A DNA stretch of 5,431 nt from positions 1 through 5,431 of the forward strand of contig CAMPKM010000231.1 of the NCBI GenBank assembly GCA_946887155.1, in the 5' to 3' direction. Source of the DNA: an uncultured Gemmatimonadota bacterium. Its GTDB lineage: Bacteria; Gemmatimonadota; Gemmatimonadetes; Gemmatimonadales; Gemmatimonadaceae. A model generated the notes under the pieces. That model was not told where the DNA came from. It was given only the letters and a program-made list of their open reading frames with translations, and made no database searches. Shown one piece after another: positions 784 to 5,431 of the stretch. Both the position numbers and the translations under genes were made by a program. How positions within the stretch are numbered: position 1 is the stretch's first letter; each line of letters begins with the position of its first letter.

Positions 784-3201
784 GTGGAATTGGTCAGCAG
801 CCTGCGTTTCCTCGCGCGCCGGAAGGCCGTCGCCGTCGTGGCCATCCTGACCATGGCCAGCGCGCTCGGCGTCAACACCGCCGCCCTCGCCGTGTTGCGC
901 GCCTTCCTGTTCTCGGGCATCGGCGTTCCCGAACCCGATCGCCTGGTCAGCATCGGTCCCTTCCGGGAGTTGCCGGGACGCGGTGAGGTGCTGTTCTCCG
1001 ACGCGTACCCGAACTACCTGCTGCTACGCGACACCGAACGCTCGTTCGACGAGCTGACGGTCACGTTGCAGAACATCGTCAACTGGCAGCAGGGGACCGA
1101 CGTCCGGGCGCTGCAGAACACCCGTGCTTCGGCGACGTTCTTCCGTACCATGCGCGTGTCCCCGGTCCTCGGGCGCGGCTTCACGCCTGACGAGGAAGGT
1201 CCGTCGCCAGCGCCGGTGATCGTCATCAGCCACGCCATCTGGACGTCCGCCTTTGCCCGCGACCCGGGCGTGGTCGGAAAGGTCATCACGATCGACGGCG
1301 TTCCGACGACGATCATCGGCGTGATGCCGCCGGGGTTCTCGCAGCCGGCACCCACCGATGTCTGGCAACCCTTCGACATTCCGCCTAACCAGCGCGTCCA
1401 GGTGGCTGGCGCCCGGTCCCTGGCGATCTTCGGGCGAATCGCGGACGGGGTCGCGCCTCGCACCGCCATGGCCGAGGTGAACGAATTCACGCGGCGGAGC
1501 CAGGAAGCCTATCCGCCGGACAATCGCGACTATCACTACCGCATGCAGACGCTGCGTGAACTGCTGCTCAGCGGCGCCAACTCGACGGTCGTGCTGATCC
1601 AGGTGGCGGCTGCCTGCCTGCTCGTGCTCGCGATCCTCAACCTAGTCTCACTCCTGGGGGCGTGGGGGTTCCAGCGGAACCAGGAAATGGCGATCCGTAT
1701 CGCGTTAGGTGGCGGTCGGCGACAGGTCGTTCGGCTGCTGCTGGCACAAAGCGGATTGATCGTCGGTGCCGGACTGGTGCTGGGCGTGGGACTGGCCGTG
1801 CTCTTGCTGGCCTTCGCGAAGCAACTGGATCTCGGGCCTCAGCTCGGATATTTCCTCGGCCAGGTGAGAGTGGATGCGACGGTGCTGGCGATCTGCATTC
1901 CGATCGCCACGATCGTTGCCCTGGCGGCCGGCTCGTTGCCGGCGCTGGTCACGCAGCGACGAGGGCTTGCCCAGACGCTTCGCTCGTCGTCGCGATCGGC
2001 CTCGCATTCGGCCGGCGCCCTCCGTCTGCAGCGGGCCATGGTCGTCCTGCAGGCCTCGCTGTCCGTGATCGTGCTGGCGGCGGCTGCCATCGTCGGGATG
2101 AGCTTTCGTAACCTTTCCGCCGTTCCTGACGGTTTCGAGGCGGATCGGCTGACCGTGGCTCGGGTGATTCTGCCTGACGCGCAATACGGAACGCACCCGT
2201 CTCGCGTGGCCTTTGCGGACGCGCTGACGGCGTCGCTGGAAGGCGAACCGGTCTTCACGGGTCATGCGATGACGACGACGTTGCCCGTGAGCGACGTGAG
2301 GTGGGGCAGCCGCTGGTTTGTGCCGGACCAGAACGGCGCCATTACCGGCGATCCGGCGTTGTTCCACTTCCGGCGCATTTCACCCGACTATCCGCGCGTC
2401 ATGGGTTTCGCACTCCTGCGCGGCCGCTATTTCACCGCCGGCGACGATAACGGGTCCCCCCGCGTGGTCATCATCAGCCGAGCGATCGCCGATCGATACT
2501 TCCCGAACCAGGATCCGGTGGGGAAGCAGATTCACCGGGCGGGCGCGCCCGGCACCGCCAACACCCCGTTCGAGATCGTCGGCGTCATCGGCGACGCCAT
2601 GGATGGAGGGTACGAAGCGCCGCCAGGTGAAGCCGTCTACGTGCCTTTCGCGCAGTTGTCGGGTACCCGGATTTCCATCGTCGTGCACACGCAGGCCGGC
2701 CGCCGCGAGGCCAGCGCGGCGATCCAGCGCGCGCTGCGATCGGCCGACCCGCTGGTCGCCGCGTCAGGCATAACGACGCTCGATGCCCTCGTGCAATCGG
2801 CGAACGCGTTGCCACAGATGCGGGCCGGCATCCTGCTCCTTTTTGCGGTAGCGGCCGTGATGATCGCGGGCCTCGGAAGCTACGGAGTCATGCGACAACT
2901 GGTCGCAAATCGCGAGCGCGAATTGTCGCTGCGGCTGGTCTTCGGCGCAGTTCCAGCGGACCTCGCGCGAGAGGTGCTCATCCAGGTGGCGCGGCTCACG
3001 GTGCCGGGAGTGTTGCTCGGACTGACGGGGGCGTGGCTGACGGCGAACCTGCTTCGGCGCTTCGTATTTGGTATCGATCCTCGATCGCTGGCGGTGCTGG
3101 CCATCGTTGGCAGTGCCGTCCTCGTGCTGGCGACCGCGGCCGCGTTGCCCTCGGTACTACGGGCGATGAGACTCGATCCGAGGTCGGGGACGTCGGGCTG
3201 A
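784..3201 (+). CDS. ADOP-family duplicated permease (MacB/FtsX-like ABC transporter permease)
   Basis: An 805-residue inner-membrane protein made of two tandem copies of the MacB-type unit: one membrane helix, a periplasmic MacB_PCD domain, then the three-helix FtsX domain. Copy 1: helix about 15-40 (ALGVNTAALAVLRAFLF), periplasmic domain about 50-260 with the signature SHAIWTSAFARDPGVVG and the following TIIGVMPPGF, FtsX domain about 267-390 containing EMAIRIALGGGRRQVVR. Copy 2: helix about 415-440, periplasmic domain about 445-675 with ISRAIADRYFPNQDPVGK and FEIVGVIGDAMDGG, FtsX domain about 680-795 containing ERELSLRLVFGA, ending PSVLRAMRLDP. About 800 residues is the usual length for the acidobacterial duplicated orphan permease family. 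Such proteins lack their own ATPase. No ATP-binding-cassette gene lies in this window, which fits 'orphan', although the flanks are not visible. MacB relatives couple cytoplasmic ATP hydrolysis to periplasmic conformational work; the substrate here is unknown. The start is GTG, preceded by GGAG seven bases upstream. The reading frame is intact, with no sign of decay. Confidence 0.93.
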   Translation: MELVSSLRFLARRKAVAVVAILTMASALGVNTAALAVLRAFLFSGIGVPEPDRLVSIGPFRELPGRGEVLFSDAYPNYLLLRDTERSFDELTVTLQNIVNWQQGTDVRALQNTRASATFFRTMRVSPVLGRGFTPDEEGPSPAPVIVISHAIWTSAFARDPGVVGKVITIDGVPTTIIGVMPPGFSQPAPTDVWQPFDIPPNQRVQVAGARSLAIFGRIADGVAPRTAMAEVNEFTRRSQEAYPPDNRDYHYRMQTLRELLLSGANSTVVLIQVAAACLLVLAILNLVSLLGAWGFQRNQEMAIRIALGGGRRQVVRLLLAQSGLIVGAGLVLGVGLAVLLLAFAKQLDLGPQLGYFLGQVRVDATVLAICIPIATIVALAAGSLPALVTQRRGLAQTLRSSSRSASHSAGALRLQRAMVVLQASLSVIVLAAAAIVGMSFRNLSAVPDGFEADRLTVARVILPDAQYGTHPSRVAFADALTASLEGEPVFTGHAMTTTLPVSDVRWGSRWFVPDQNGAITGDPALFHFRRISPDYPRVMGFALLRGRYFTAGDDNGSPRVVIISRAIADRYFPNQDPVGKQIHRAGAPGTANTPFEIVGVIGDAMDGGYEAPPGEAVYVPFAQLSGTRISIVVHTQAGRREASAAIQRALRSADPLVAASGITTLDALVQSANALPQMRAGILLLFAVAAVMIAGLGSYGVMRQLVANRERELSLRLVFGAVPADLAREVLIQVARLTVPGVLLGLTGAWLTANLLRRFVFGIDPRSLAVLAIVGSAVLVLATAAALPSVLRAMRLDPRSGTSG

Positions 3202-3400: not shown

Positions 3401-3985
3401 ATGCCTCGTGCCGTATACTCGTTATGCGTGCTGGCCGGCGTCAGTATCGCCTGCAGCGAAGACCCCGTTGGACAGCAGACCGCCGCTGACGTCGTGACTG
3501 ACCATGGTGCGGTTGTCGCGATGAACGCGCACGACGCGCATGGTCGTTCACAGATCGCGATCCTCGATGACTGTGCAACGGACCCGGCGTGGGCCCCGAC
3601 AGGCGGGTGCACGCTCCGGGATGGGGCCGTCACGGAAGCCGGGTTCGGCGCCTTCCTGTCGTCGCCGCTGTCCCTTTCAGTGGTTGGGCACCCCGCGTGG
3701 CGCAACGAGCCGTCGTACCTGCGGATCGATGCGGGGCAGCACGTTCGCGTGACCAACGAAGGCGGCCGGACGCACACTTTCACCCGCGTGGCGGAATTCG
3801 GTGGGGGGTTCGTGCCTCCGTTGAGCCAGGGGCTGACCCAGGCACCCGAATGTGTCCCCGGCGCGCCGACCACAAACGAGCTCGCGCCCGGTGACCGGCT
3901 GGAGCTCAACGGGCTCGCCCCCGGTGATCACCGGTACCAGTGCTGTATTCACCCCTGGATGCGTGCGCTCGTGAAAGTGCAGTAG
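3401..3985 (+). CDS. Cupredoxin (plastocyanin-like) lipoprotein
   Basis: A 194-residue exported blue-copper-type protein. ATG 3401 is preceded by AAGGAG (3389-3394) at six bases, a strong start. Residues 1-17 form a short signal peptide (VYSLCVLAGVSIA) followed by Cys18. The -3 residue is Ser rather than the usual Leu, so lipidation is likely but not certain. The C-terminal half is a cupredoxin fold. EPSYLRIDAGQHVRVTN leads to the first copper ligand His125 in GGRTHTFTRV, and the second cluster YQCCIHPWM supplies Cys181, His184 and Met187 (C-x2-H-x2-M, the compact loop of many bacterial and archaeal cupredoxins). Cys58, Cys70 and Cys151 could form a disulfide. The N-terminal segment of about 80 residues is an extension I do not recognise. 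Such proteins carry single electrons or bind copper at the outer face of the inner membrane or in the periplasm. The next genes encode a putative copper membrane monooxygenase-like assembly, so electron delivery or copper handling for it is a reasonable inference. A hairpin after the stop suggests separate or partly separate transcription. Confidence 0.88.
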   Translation: MPRAVYSLCVLAGVSIACSEDPVGQQTAADVVTDHGAVVAMNAHDAHGRSQIAILDDCATDPAWAPTGGCTLRDGAVTEAGFGAFLSSPLSLSVVGHPAWRNEPSYLRIDAGQHVRVTNEGGRTHTFTRVAEFGGGFVPPLSQGLTQAPECVPGAPTTNELAPGDRLELNGLAPGDHRYQCCIHPWMRALVKVQ

Positions 3986-4032: not shown

Positions 4033-4158
4033 GCGCCCTGCGCTGGGGTCCGGCGGAGCGAGAGGAAGGGTACCTGGGCGAGATCAAGCGCTTTTGCGTA
4101 ATCCGCGTTGCGCCTTCCGCTTCACGCTGCACCTTTCACAGACCTCAACGCTTCCGCA

Positions 4159-5325
4159 GTGACCTCGACCACCGCCCCGATCCAGTCTGTTGCCGCGCCA
4201 GCCGGCCGAATCACCGCGGCGATGTGGCCACTGTACGCAGTCCTCGGCGCTTCGCTCGGCATTGTCGTGGGGCTGATCTGGGACATCTCGTGGCATCGCA
4301 CGATCGGCCGGGACACGTTCTGGTCCCCGCCACACCTCCTCGAGCAGGTGTCGGCACTGGTCGCGGGAACGACCTGCGGCTGGCTGGTACTCCGCACGAC
4401 GTTCGCCGGGACGCCTTCCGACCATGCCGCCACGGTCGGGTTCTGGGGATTCCGCGGCCCGTTAGGCGCGTGGCTGTGTATCTGGGGAACGCTGACGATG
4501 ATTGCGTCGGCCCCGCTCGACAACTGGTGGCACAACGCGTACGGGCTGGACGTGAAGATCATGAGCCCGCCCCACATGGTGCTGGCGTGGGGCATGATCG
4601 GCATCCAGGCGGGCGCGATCCTGATGACGCTGGCCAGGCAGAATCGAGCCACGCCTGACGAGGGCTCGCGCCTGGCGTTGCTCTACGCCATGTCGTCCGG
4701 CATCCTGCTGGCGATGCACGCGACGGGCATCATGGAATTCGCGGCCTTCGCGAACGATATGCATGGTCCCGCATTCTATCGAGTGACGGCGATCCTGATC
4801 CCGGTCATCCTGATCGCCACATCGCGACCCTCGAGGCTCCGGTACCCGGCGACCACCACCGCCGCGATCTACATGGCGATCATCGTGCTGCTCGTCTGGA
4901 TCCTGCCGCTGTTTGGCGCGACCGCCAAGCTCGCGCCCATCCACAATCCGGTTTCGCGAATGGTGCCGCCGCCATTTCCCTTGCTGTTGATCATCCCCGG
5001 CTTCGTGATCGACGTCATCATGAAGCGCACACGCCTGAACGACTGGTGGCTGTCGGTTGTTCTCGGCACGACGTTCGTTGGAAGCATGCTGGTGGCTCAC
5101 TGGTGGTGGGGCGAGTTTCTGCTGTCGCCGGCGGCACGCAATTGGCTCTTCGGTGTGGATCAGTGGGATTACTACGTCAGGCTCGGCGACTGGCGGTATC
5201 AGTTCTGGAGCTACGCCGGCGTACCCGACCTCGTCCGCGGCCTCGCCATCGCGCTCGCCACGGCGATCGTCACGTCGCGAGTGGGATTGTGGGTGGGCAG
5301 CGGCATGGCGCGAGTCCGTCGATGA
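4159..5325 (+). CDS. Polytopic membrane protein resembling a PmoC/AmoC-PmoA/AmoA fusion (putative copper membrane monooxygenase subunit)
   Basis: From the GTG at 4159 this is a 388-residue protein with about ten membrane helices (roughly 23-41, 60-78, 100-117, 139-159, 171-194, 205-222, 230-252, 270-288, 298-318, 359-379). Between helices 1 and 2, DISWHRTIGRDTFWSPPH places Asp42, His46 and His59 as D-x3-H-x12-H. This is the spacing of the PmoC CuC ligands, and it matches PmoC WHQTIVRDTDFTPSH almost residue by residue. Between helices 3 and 4, Asp121, His125 and His139 (DNWWH...SPPH) follow D-x3-H-x13-H, the spacing of the PmoC CuD site, where the first ligand is Asn. The C-terminal half follows PmoA: a YRVT helix, RLRYPATT (PmoA RLPWGAT), FPLLLIIPGFVID (PmoA FPASLVPGAIILD), then WDYYVRLGDWRY (PmoA YNYVRTGTPEY) at nearly equal spacing, then a last helix. 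It is shorter than separate PmoC plus PmoA and lacks the first helices of PmoC. Substrate is unknown. The start is uncertain: TTG 4108 (405 residues) and ATG 4222 are in frame, and none has a clear ribosome binding site. The stop overlaps the next gene. Confidence 0.72.
   Translation: MTSTTAPIQSVAAPAGRITAAMWPLYAVLGASLGIVVGLIWDISWHRTIGRDTFWSPPHLLEQVSALVAGTTCGWLVLRTTFAGTPSDHAATVGFWGFRGPLGAWLCIWGTLTMIASAPLDNWWHNAYGLDVKIMSPPHMVLAWGMIGIQAGAILMTLARQNRATPDEGSRLALLYAMSSGILLAMHATGIMEFAAFANDMHGPAFYRVTAILIPVILIATSRPSRLRYPATTTAAIYMAIIVLLVWILPLFGATAKLAPIHNPVSRMVPPPFPLLLIIPGFVIDVIMKRTRLNDWWLSVVLGTTFVGSMLVAHWWWGEFLLSPAARNWLFGVDQWDYYVRLGDWRYQFWSYAGVPDLVRGLAIALATAIVTSRVGLWVGSGMARVRR
4282..4335 (+). other. CuC-like copper site motif D-x3-H-x12-H in the membrane protein
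   Basis: Codons for Asp (4282-4284), His (4294-4296) and His (4333-4335) sit at offsets 0, +4 and +17. PmoC of Methylococcus capsulatus uses Asp156, His160 and His173 at identical spacing. The intervening residues T, I, R, D, T and P are also shared, and a Glu three residues after the last His matches PmoC (H-I-I-E versus H-L-L-E). The ligands lie at a predicted helix-loop boundary on the same side as the second site. Confidence 0.72.
4519..4575 (+). other. CuD-like copper site motif D-x3-H-x13-H in the membrane protein
   Basis: Codons for Asp (4519-4521), His (4531-4533) and His (4573-4575) sit at offsets 0, +4 and +18. PmoC uses Asn227, His231 and His245 at the same spacing, within NEWGH and APLH; here the residues are DNWWH and SPPH. 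The Asn-to-Asp change would give a carboxylate ligand and make this site chemically more like the first one. Confidence 0.6.
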
Positions 5326-5431
5326 AGAGTGTCGTCAGGCTGGCGACGATTGGCGCCATCGTGCTCGTGTCGTCGGCGCATATCGGCAGCCCCGACGCCT
5401 GGTTCGAGGGCATGGCCGGCTCGTTTCCGGT
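5322..5431 (+). CDS. Secreted protein with predicted mature N-terminal histidine, possibly PmoB-like (partial, cut by right edge)
   Basis: ATG 5322 overlaps the TGA of the preceding gene in the sequence ATGA, which points to translational coupling and a shared operon. No independent ribosome binding site is evident. The 36 visible codons give a short signal peptide: Lys2 and Arg6, a hydrophobic stretch LATIGAIVLV, and a cleavage site SSA. His20 would be the first mature residue, followed by IGSPDAWFEGMAGSFP. In PmoB/AmoB the mature protein also begins with His after Ala (SASA then HG), and that histidine is a copper ligand. PmoB is encoded directly after pmoC-pmoA in known operons, and this gene occupies the equivalent position. 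No cupredoxin domain is visible in so short a piece, so the PmoB relation is an inference from position and N-terminus only. That it is an exported protein is well supported. Confidence 0.7.
   Translation, partial: MKSVVRLATIGAIVLVSSAHIGSPDAWFEGMAGSFP

Follow-up and report, generated by a model that had tools for sequence, protein, structure and literature searches.

The window analysed here is a stretch of 5,431 nucleotides from an uncultured Gemmatimonadota bacterium (assembly GCA_946887155.1, contig CAMPKM010000231.1), and it ends with two adjoining genes which are the subject of this study. The first, here named CA, codes for a membrane protein in which a first-pass annotation, made from the letters alone, had noticed both copper-site motifs of PmoC/AmoC, the C subunits of particulate methane monooxygenase (pMMO) and ammonia monooxygenase (AMO). 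The second gene, B, follows directly and is cut by the end of the window. The features of both genes are given below, all on the plus strand.

4159..5325, plus: gene CA, in all likelihood a PmoC-PmoA-like fusion (open reading frame (ORF) list, translation)
4222..4650, plus: PmoC-like part of CA, residues 1-143 of database protein P0002, with four transmembrane helices and both metal triads (AlphaFold2 (AF2) helices, hhalign with PmoC, AmoC-model matches in family genomes)
4282..4335, plus: CuC-type triad D21-x3-H25-x12-H38, with R30 at the place of PmoC Arg165; conserved, aligned to the PmoC ligands
4519..4575, plus: CuD-type triad D100-x3-H104-x13-H118, with Asp at the place of PmoC Asn227; conserved, in register in hhalign
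4651..5322, plus: PmoA-like part of CA, residues 144-367, with the remaining transmembrane helices
5322..5431, plus: 5' end of gene B (PmoB-like layout), the first 36 codons, cut by the window end; MKSVVRLATIGAIVLVSSA / HIGSPDAWFEGMAGSFP
5379..5381, plus: codon for His20 of B, which would be the N-terminal His of the mature protein after putative removal of a signal peptide

The reading frame of CA is open from a TTG at 4108, and the database protein P0002 starts at the ATG at 4222, from which the residues of CA are numbered here. The true start is likely the GTG at 4159, because a close relative, P0003 (VTASAA...), begins at the same position. The start codon of B overlaps the stop codon of CA in the sequence ATGA.

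CA had been called uncharacterised, and rightly so. The protein of the window has no Pfam match at E<=10, no match in a sequence search of the PDB, neither as a single sequence nor as a profile, and one NCBIfam match only, which at an E-value of 0.34 is meaningless. With Foldseek the best E-value was 0.08, the rows being cytochrome bd and TRPV1 at low template modelling (TM) scores. A database search in which 7999 candidates were scored yielded at least 6028 homologues at E<=0.001, and those among the matches listed which carry a name are all a "hypothetical protein".

Copper-site motifs of CA and the link to PmoC

In pMMO, the CuC site is formed by Asp156, His160 and His173 and the CuD site by Asn227, His231 and His245, with Arg165 nearby (PMC12576850, in excerpt). 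Both motifs are present in the translation of CA exactly where the first-pass annotation had placed them, as Asp21/His25/His38 at 4282-4335 and Asp100/His104/His118 at 4519-4575. CA shares with PmoC/AmoC (PF04896; PDB 7s4h/7s4j) the D-x3-H-x12-H spacing and an Arg five residues past the first His, the x3/x13 spacing of the second triad and the order of the two triads. It also shares the setting WH-x-T-x2-RDT-x-F-x-P-x-H-x2-E. Here, the protein of the window reads WHRTIGRDT and PPHLLE, the canonical PmoC WHQTVIRDT and PSHIIE; the common core and the trailing P-x-H-x2-E element were described correctly as well. Unlike PmoC/AmoC, CA consists of a four-helix core only in this part, has Asp for Asn in the second triad, is fused to an A part and, in each of the 12 tested genomes, scores too low for the Pfam cut-off. 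Archaeal copper membrane monooxygenases (CuMMOs) of Nitrososphaerales and Ca. Angelarchaeales resemble CA in being highly divergent and in having a shortened AmoC which keeps the CuC triad; their amoA, amoB and amoC are separate proteins and they are reported to lack the D-site (PMC9038741 and PMC10030591, in excerpt), whereas CA keeps the CuD place and has C and A on one chain. The D-site is described as conserved in bacterial lineages only (PMC9038741, in excerpt).

The six triad residues are invariant across 87 aligned family proteins with 46-87% identity to the CA of the window (29 of the 120 listed homologues plus 58 of 80 loci). They are also invariant in a more divergent set of 41 proteins, in which identity goes down to 29% (6 database proteins, 25 loci and 10 divergent loci). 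The same is true in both alignments for R30, located five residues past H25, which is the counterpart of PmoC Arg165. The ordered pair of motifs occurs in all 120 listed database proteins (P0002 included) and in all 91 family ORFs (the CA of the window included). The remaining 6964 ORFs from these loci include none with the ordered pair; motif 1 is seen in 140 of them and motif 2 in 137. A chance origin of the motifs is thereby rejected, in agreement with the first-pass annotation, which had judged them hard to obtain by chance.

The motifs had also been placed in loops between predicted helices. In the AF2 model, helices span residues 2-27, 36-62, 81-107 and 116-141; Asp21 and His25 end the first of these and His38 starts the second, Asp100 and His104 end the third and His118 starts the fourth. 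As the helices alternate in direction, both triads would be found on one face of the membrane. Of the arrangement envisaged before, with triads clustered and not on opposite faces, the same-face part is thus supported by the predicted topology.

Since the scores of single proteins are weak, we tested where the profiles land. In hhalign, CA matched PmoC with E=1e-4 (a single pairwise comparison, probability 57.5%) and with both triads in register, and the divergent set of CA proteins gave the same E of 1e-4; the profile match to AmoC/PmoC is hence present, if weak per protein. There was no clear match to PmoA (E 0.077 and 0.028), and the comparison with PmoB gave 0.41. The Pfam AmoC model (PF04896), run on 12 whole family genomes, matched at E<=10 in eight, at one place each, and all eight places are the CA gene. 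In a Pfam scan of the 41 divergent CA members AmoC was the most frequent family, with seven members and a best E of 0.0022; the next families had three. A profile built of 13 canonical PmoC proteins, kept from 6 plus 20 candidates, gave 86 matches at E<=10 on 7055 ORFs, of which 84 are CA (out of 91 CA). The corresponding figures are four matches for the PmoA profile (three to CA, best E 3) and three for the PmoB profile (one to CA, none to B, best E 0.28). In 83 of the 84 CA matches of the PmoC profile hidden Markov model (HMM), the Asp, His, Arg and His of the CuC site are exactly aligned to those of PmoC; the exception is a long ORF whose reference motif was probably an earlier chance occurrence. 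CuD positions are touched by ten of these alignments, in register in six and elsewhere in four. As a source for such profiles, 127 stretches of a viral contig collection code for a pmoC-like protein of the canonical kind (80 of them retained as loci L140-L219).

One could suppose that the motifs are convergent and that CA is a membrane protein unrelated to PmoC, with two loops which bind any divalent metal. Consistent with this are the low scores of single proteins (the best E being the above 0.0022), the generic four-helix fold predicted for residues 1-148 and the fact that the PmoC HMM seldom reaches the CuD part. However, in the 12 genomes and the 7055 ORFs the AmoC and PmoC profiles select CA and almost nothing else, the match spans the whole WH-x-T-x-x-RDT-x-F-x-P-x-H-x-x-E setting beyond the ligands, and the adjoining half of CA separately matches the partner subunit PmoA. 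We therefore disfavour convergence as very improbable and consider CA, on the grounds of its sequence, almost certainly homologous to PmoC.

The PmoA-like half and the downstream gene B

The C-terminal 220 residues of CA match the PmoA fold in a search with the predicted structure, the seven-helix fold of subunit A being found in the second half of CA. Together with the PmoB-like layout of the following gene this had been missed by the first-pass annotation. As judged from the models, CA very probably is a PmoC part fused to a part with PmoA fold. The C-like and A-like parts form one ORF in the aligned relatives, so that the unit consists of two genes, CA-B, and, unlike PmoA/AmoA (PF02461), the A part of CA is no separate protein. 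For published CuMMOs a set of three genes is given, usually xmoCAB (PMC6215863, in excerpt); with two genes, CA-B departs from this set of xmoC, xmoA and xmoB. Two further partial matches to CA were seen. One, at G514:C129:519-1193, comprises the PmoA-like part only (positions 145-368, open frame of 244 amino acids), the other, at G518:C235:51657-51761, positions 3-37 only. Split genes, paralogues or pieces at contig edges are candidate explanations for these.

A relative of B follows CA in 79 of 80 loci, and in the remaining one (L002) the contig ends 64 bases on; it follows CA in all ten divergent loci too. All 79 B proteins have a hydrophobic stretch directly followed by a His, and the residue preceding this His is Ala in 57, Gly in 19, Val in 2 and Pro in 1. 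Judged by this pattern, the signal peptide would be cleaved just before the His, which would leave it at the N-terminus of the mature protein; B is likely exported. H247, H252, H266, H268, H387, H400 and H402 are invariant in an alignment of 59 B proteins, selected from the 79 by leaving out those which were cut, interrupted (the range in L016 holds a stop), missed by the start pattern or near-identical. In a wider set of 23 proteins H252 and H266 are still invariant and the other five His are conserved to at least 90%. Both alignments were cut to begin at the N-terminal His, so that its invariance in them is built in. In the most divergent locus, B (L130:5167-6525, minus strand) still has the N-terminal His and GHMMH, but HIN replaces HLH and there is no second HLHP cluster. 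Not all of the C-terminal His clusters may therefore be essential. Residues 247-268 and 387-402 show two similar H...HxH patterns in successive beta domains, which suggests, from the sequence, that these domains arose by internal duplication with one metal site per copy.

The model of B (predicted local distance difference test (pLDDT) 93.8) shows a beta domain, helices at 118-145 and 156-193 and then more beta structure. PmoB consists of two cupredoxin-like barrels joined by two membrane helices (PMC12576850, in excerpt). Thus, B resembles PmoB/AmoB (PF04744) in the location of its gene after C and A, in the N-terminal His of the putative mature form and in the succession of beta domain, two membrane helices and beta domain. 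It differs in that the seven invariant His lie in its C-terminal domains and that the beta part at its C-terminus is longer. At least 2894 homologues of B were found at E<=0.001 (7998 scored), and the named ones among the matches listed are hypothetical proteins.

Several results limit the comparison of CA-B with the CuMMOs. The curated cut-off of the AmoC model (26.7 bits) is passed in none of the 12 family genomes, the best score being 18.2 bits, and four of the 12 have no match at E<=10. The model also has background matches: 2 of 14 controls were positive, 39 of 387 Verrucomicrobiota genomes have AmoC matches (E<=1) which all are below the cut-off, and when 24 of these 39 were inspected as loci, the match was CA in one, G002, only. 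The CA of the window is not among the seven AmoC-matching members of the Pfam scan, and no clear profile-level similarity to PmoA (PF02461) was found in CA. B has no sequence similarity to PmoB, neither in hhalign nor with the PmoB profile on the 7055 ORFs. Fold searches with B, including Foldseek, returned mostly generic beta-sandwich proteins, plus CrdA and CopC, and no PmoB among the matches listed. Furthermore, the N-terminal His is present in B, but the invariant HxH of a CuB site is absent from the first domain in the 59 proteins. Finally, B has the character of a copper protein, with weak likeness in sequence and fold of its beta domains to the periplasmic copper proteins YtkA, CopC and CrdA. 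Among the 59 B proteins Pfam finds YtkA in 17 (best E 3.8e-05), and PKD, CopC (weakly, in six) and other beta-sandwich families in fewer and with weaker scores; the best PDB match of the B profile, at E 0.016, is a copper resistance protein.

Two consequences follow. Because no tested genome passes the curated AmoC cut-off on its CA gene, "outgroup" describes the sequence of CA better than "member" of the curated AmoC family; of the two options offered by the first-pass annotation for the CuMMO superfamily, a divergent member or an outgroup, the latter is the better supported. And because of the missing sequence similarity, the absence of PmoB among the listed folds and the missing invariant HxH, B, by its sequence and its model, appears PmoB-like in layout only. 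We nevertheless consider it likely that B is the counterpart of PmoB.

The copper-protein character of B is also what speaks for the main rival explanation, a non-catalytic copper-handling complex (uptake, storage or assembly; CopC/CopD type) which shares ancestry with the monooxygenases. In such a complex CA would move copper across the membrane, and its partner B would bind copper in the periplasm. This appears unlikely to us, though it is to be taken seriously. CA is like PmoC in sequence and like PmoA in fold, both of which are oxygenase subunits; both full triads, the Arg and the order C-A-B are kept across loci of several phyla; and the 25 Pfam families listed (of 43) for CA members do not include CopD. 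B is also unlike YtkA, CopC and CrdA in being a protein of several domains with two membrane helices and in standing beside CA in 79 of 80 loci.

Distribution and gene neighbourhood

According to the titles of the 80 loci, the family occurs in Gemmatimonadota, Acidobacteria, Verrucomicrobia, a Cyclobacteriaceae bacterium and others. Of 150 Gemmatimonadota genomes 42, more than a quarter, have CA. The figures are 4 of 149 for the phylum to which the Vicinamibacterales genome belongs, 2 of 247 for that of the Cyclobacteriaceae genome and 1 of 194 for that of the Verrucomicrobia genome. Each search had family genomes at its centre, and known carriers are counted in (at least four of the 42 and one in each other phylum). 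In the 12 family genomes, AMO (PF02461) has no match at E<=10 and Monooxygenase_B a match in one only (E 0.29), which is not over the cut-off. As AMO, Monooxygenase_B and AmoC are never over their cut-offs, canonical CuMMO subunits are undetected in these genomes.

When the ORFs of the 91 loci were clustered, only CA, B and their overlapping frames were near-universal. The other inspected clusters were present in at most 17 loci, were overlapping frames or were clade-local; read by eye, they include a phosphatidylethanolamine-binding-like protein, a sugar ABC transporter and a sensor kinase. No conserved pathway beside CA-B emerged from these clusters. Elsewhere in the Gemmatimonadota genomes, strong matches to pyrroloquinoline quinone (PQQ) alcohol dehydrogenase are found in 33 of 42 genomes with CA compared to 47 of 108 others (Fisher p 1.1e-4, kinship uncorrected); 80 of the 150 genomes are over the cut-off, and the 33 of the family were taken at a best E below 1e-140. 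This association would suit an alcohol-forming enzyme and, since kinship is uncorrected, is a lead only.

The absence of a widely conserved pathway beside CA-B and of canonical AmoC, AMO and Monooxygenase_B over the cut-off in all 12 family genomes would also fit a true relative of the monooxygenases which now has another role with O2 or small molecules, for instance scavenging, sensing or nitric oxide (NO) chemistry, and does not hydroxylate a growth substrate. We regard such a change of role as improbable; the PQQ alcohol dehydrogenase association, with the reservation just made, would rather fit a hydroxylation which produces an alcohol.

The remaining features of the window lie upstream of CA.

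2-685, minus: LysR-type regulator, named by eye, divergent from the ADOP-family permease gene
784-3201, plus: ADOP-type permease (NCBIfam TIGR03434, 601.8 bits at a cut-off of 622.3 bits)
3401..3985, plus: gene for a cupredoxin-like lipoprotein, adjoining CA on its upstream side; reads ...HTFT...CCIHPWM..., assigned as cupredoxin by eye

A relative of the permease was found in just three of the other 90 loci (L006, L019 and L048). In the lipoprotein, HTFT ... CCIHPWM is, by eye, a plausible type-1 copper set. Pfam gives no match for this protein, and tblastn at E<=0.01 finds nothing in the other 90 loci. A fixed role in the CA-B unit is rejected, the gene being present in the locus of the window only, and for these reasons it may be a local electron or copper carrier.

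A copper membrane monooxygenase of two polypeptides?

Taking these results together, the explanation we favour, with some confidence, is that CA-B is a two-polypeptide CuMMO and a deep outgroup of the pMMO/AMO superfamily. By analogy with its relatives, it is reasonably probable that CA-B has monooxygenase activity. Copper binding, formation of a CA-B complex, the membrane face and the O2 chemistry are what we infer in the following scheme. Copper would be held near the periplasmic face by Asp21/His25/His38 in the place of CuC and by Asp100/His104/His118 in the place of CuD, and Arg30 would belong to the second shell, like its counterpart in PmoC. Reduced copper at the paired site would, by parity with pMMO, activate O2, and a small hydrophobic or gaseous substrate would enter via the membrane and become hydroxylated. 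B would sit over the site on its periplasmic side, and its N-terminal His and conserved His clusters would serve to hold copper or to deliver it. Through the fusion, C and A would be permanently joined.

In its widest form this would make CA-B a major new lineage of two-polypeptide CuMMOs, which occurs in Gemmatimonadota, Acidobacteriota, Verrucomicrobiota and Bacteroidota and slips past pmoA/amoA surveys. One polypeptide would be the fusion of PmoC and PmoA, the other a PmoB-like partner of the His-brace type which has additional copper domains, and the substrate oxidised would be small and either gaseous or hydrophobic. For this full statement we see about an even chance. No description of a CuMMO with fused C and A or of the CA family was found among the papers listed from the literature searched, outside of which are preprints and most subscription journals.

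Which copper site of pMMO and AMO does the chemistry has long been argued, and CuC, not CuB, is the active site suggested at present (PMC12576850, in excerpt). An outgroup which has both the CuC and the CuD places, an exchange of Asn to Asp at CuD and a rebuilt B subunit makes this question testable by comparison. As such an outgroup CA-B would, if the reading is true, root the superfamily and show which of the copper sites are ancestral. Enzymes of the pMMO/AMO class are hard to produce by expression; the fusion in CA suggests that subunits C and A are able to function when joined, and production might thereby become easier. Current Pfam profiles miss the CA family, and pmoA/amoA primers probably would do so too. 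If active, CA-B would stand for an uncounted capacity for oxidising small molecules in phyla whose 12 tested family genomes show no canonical subunit over the cut-off.
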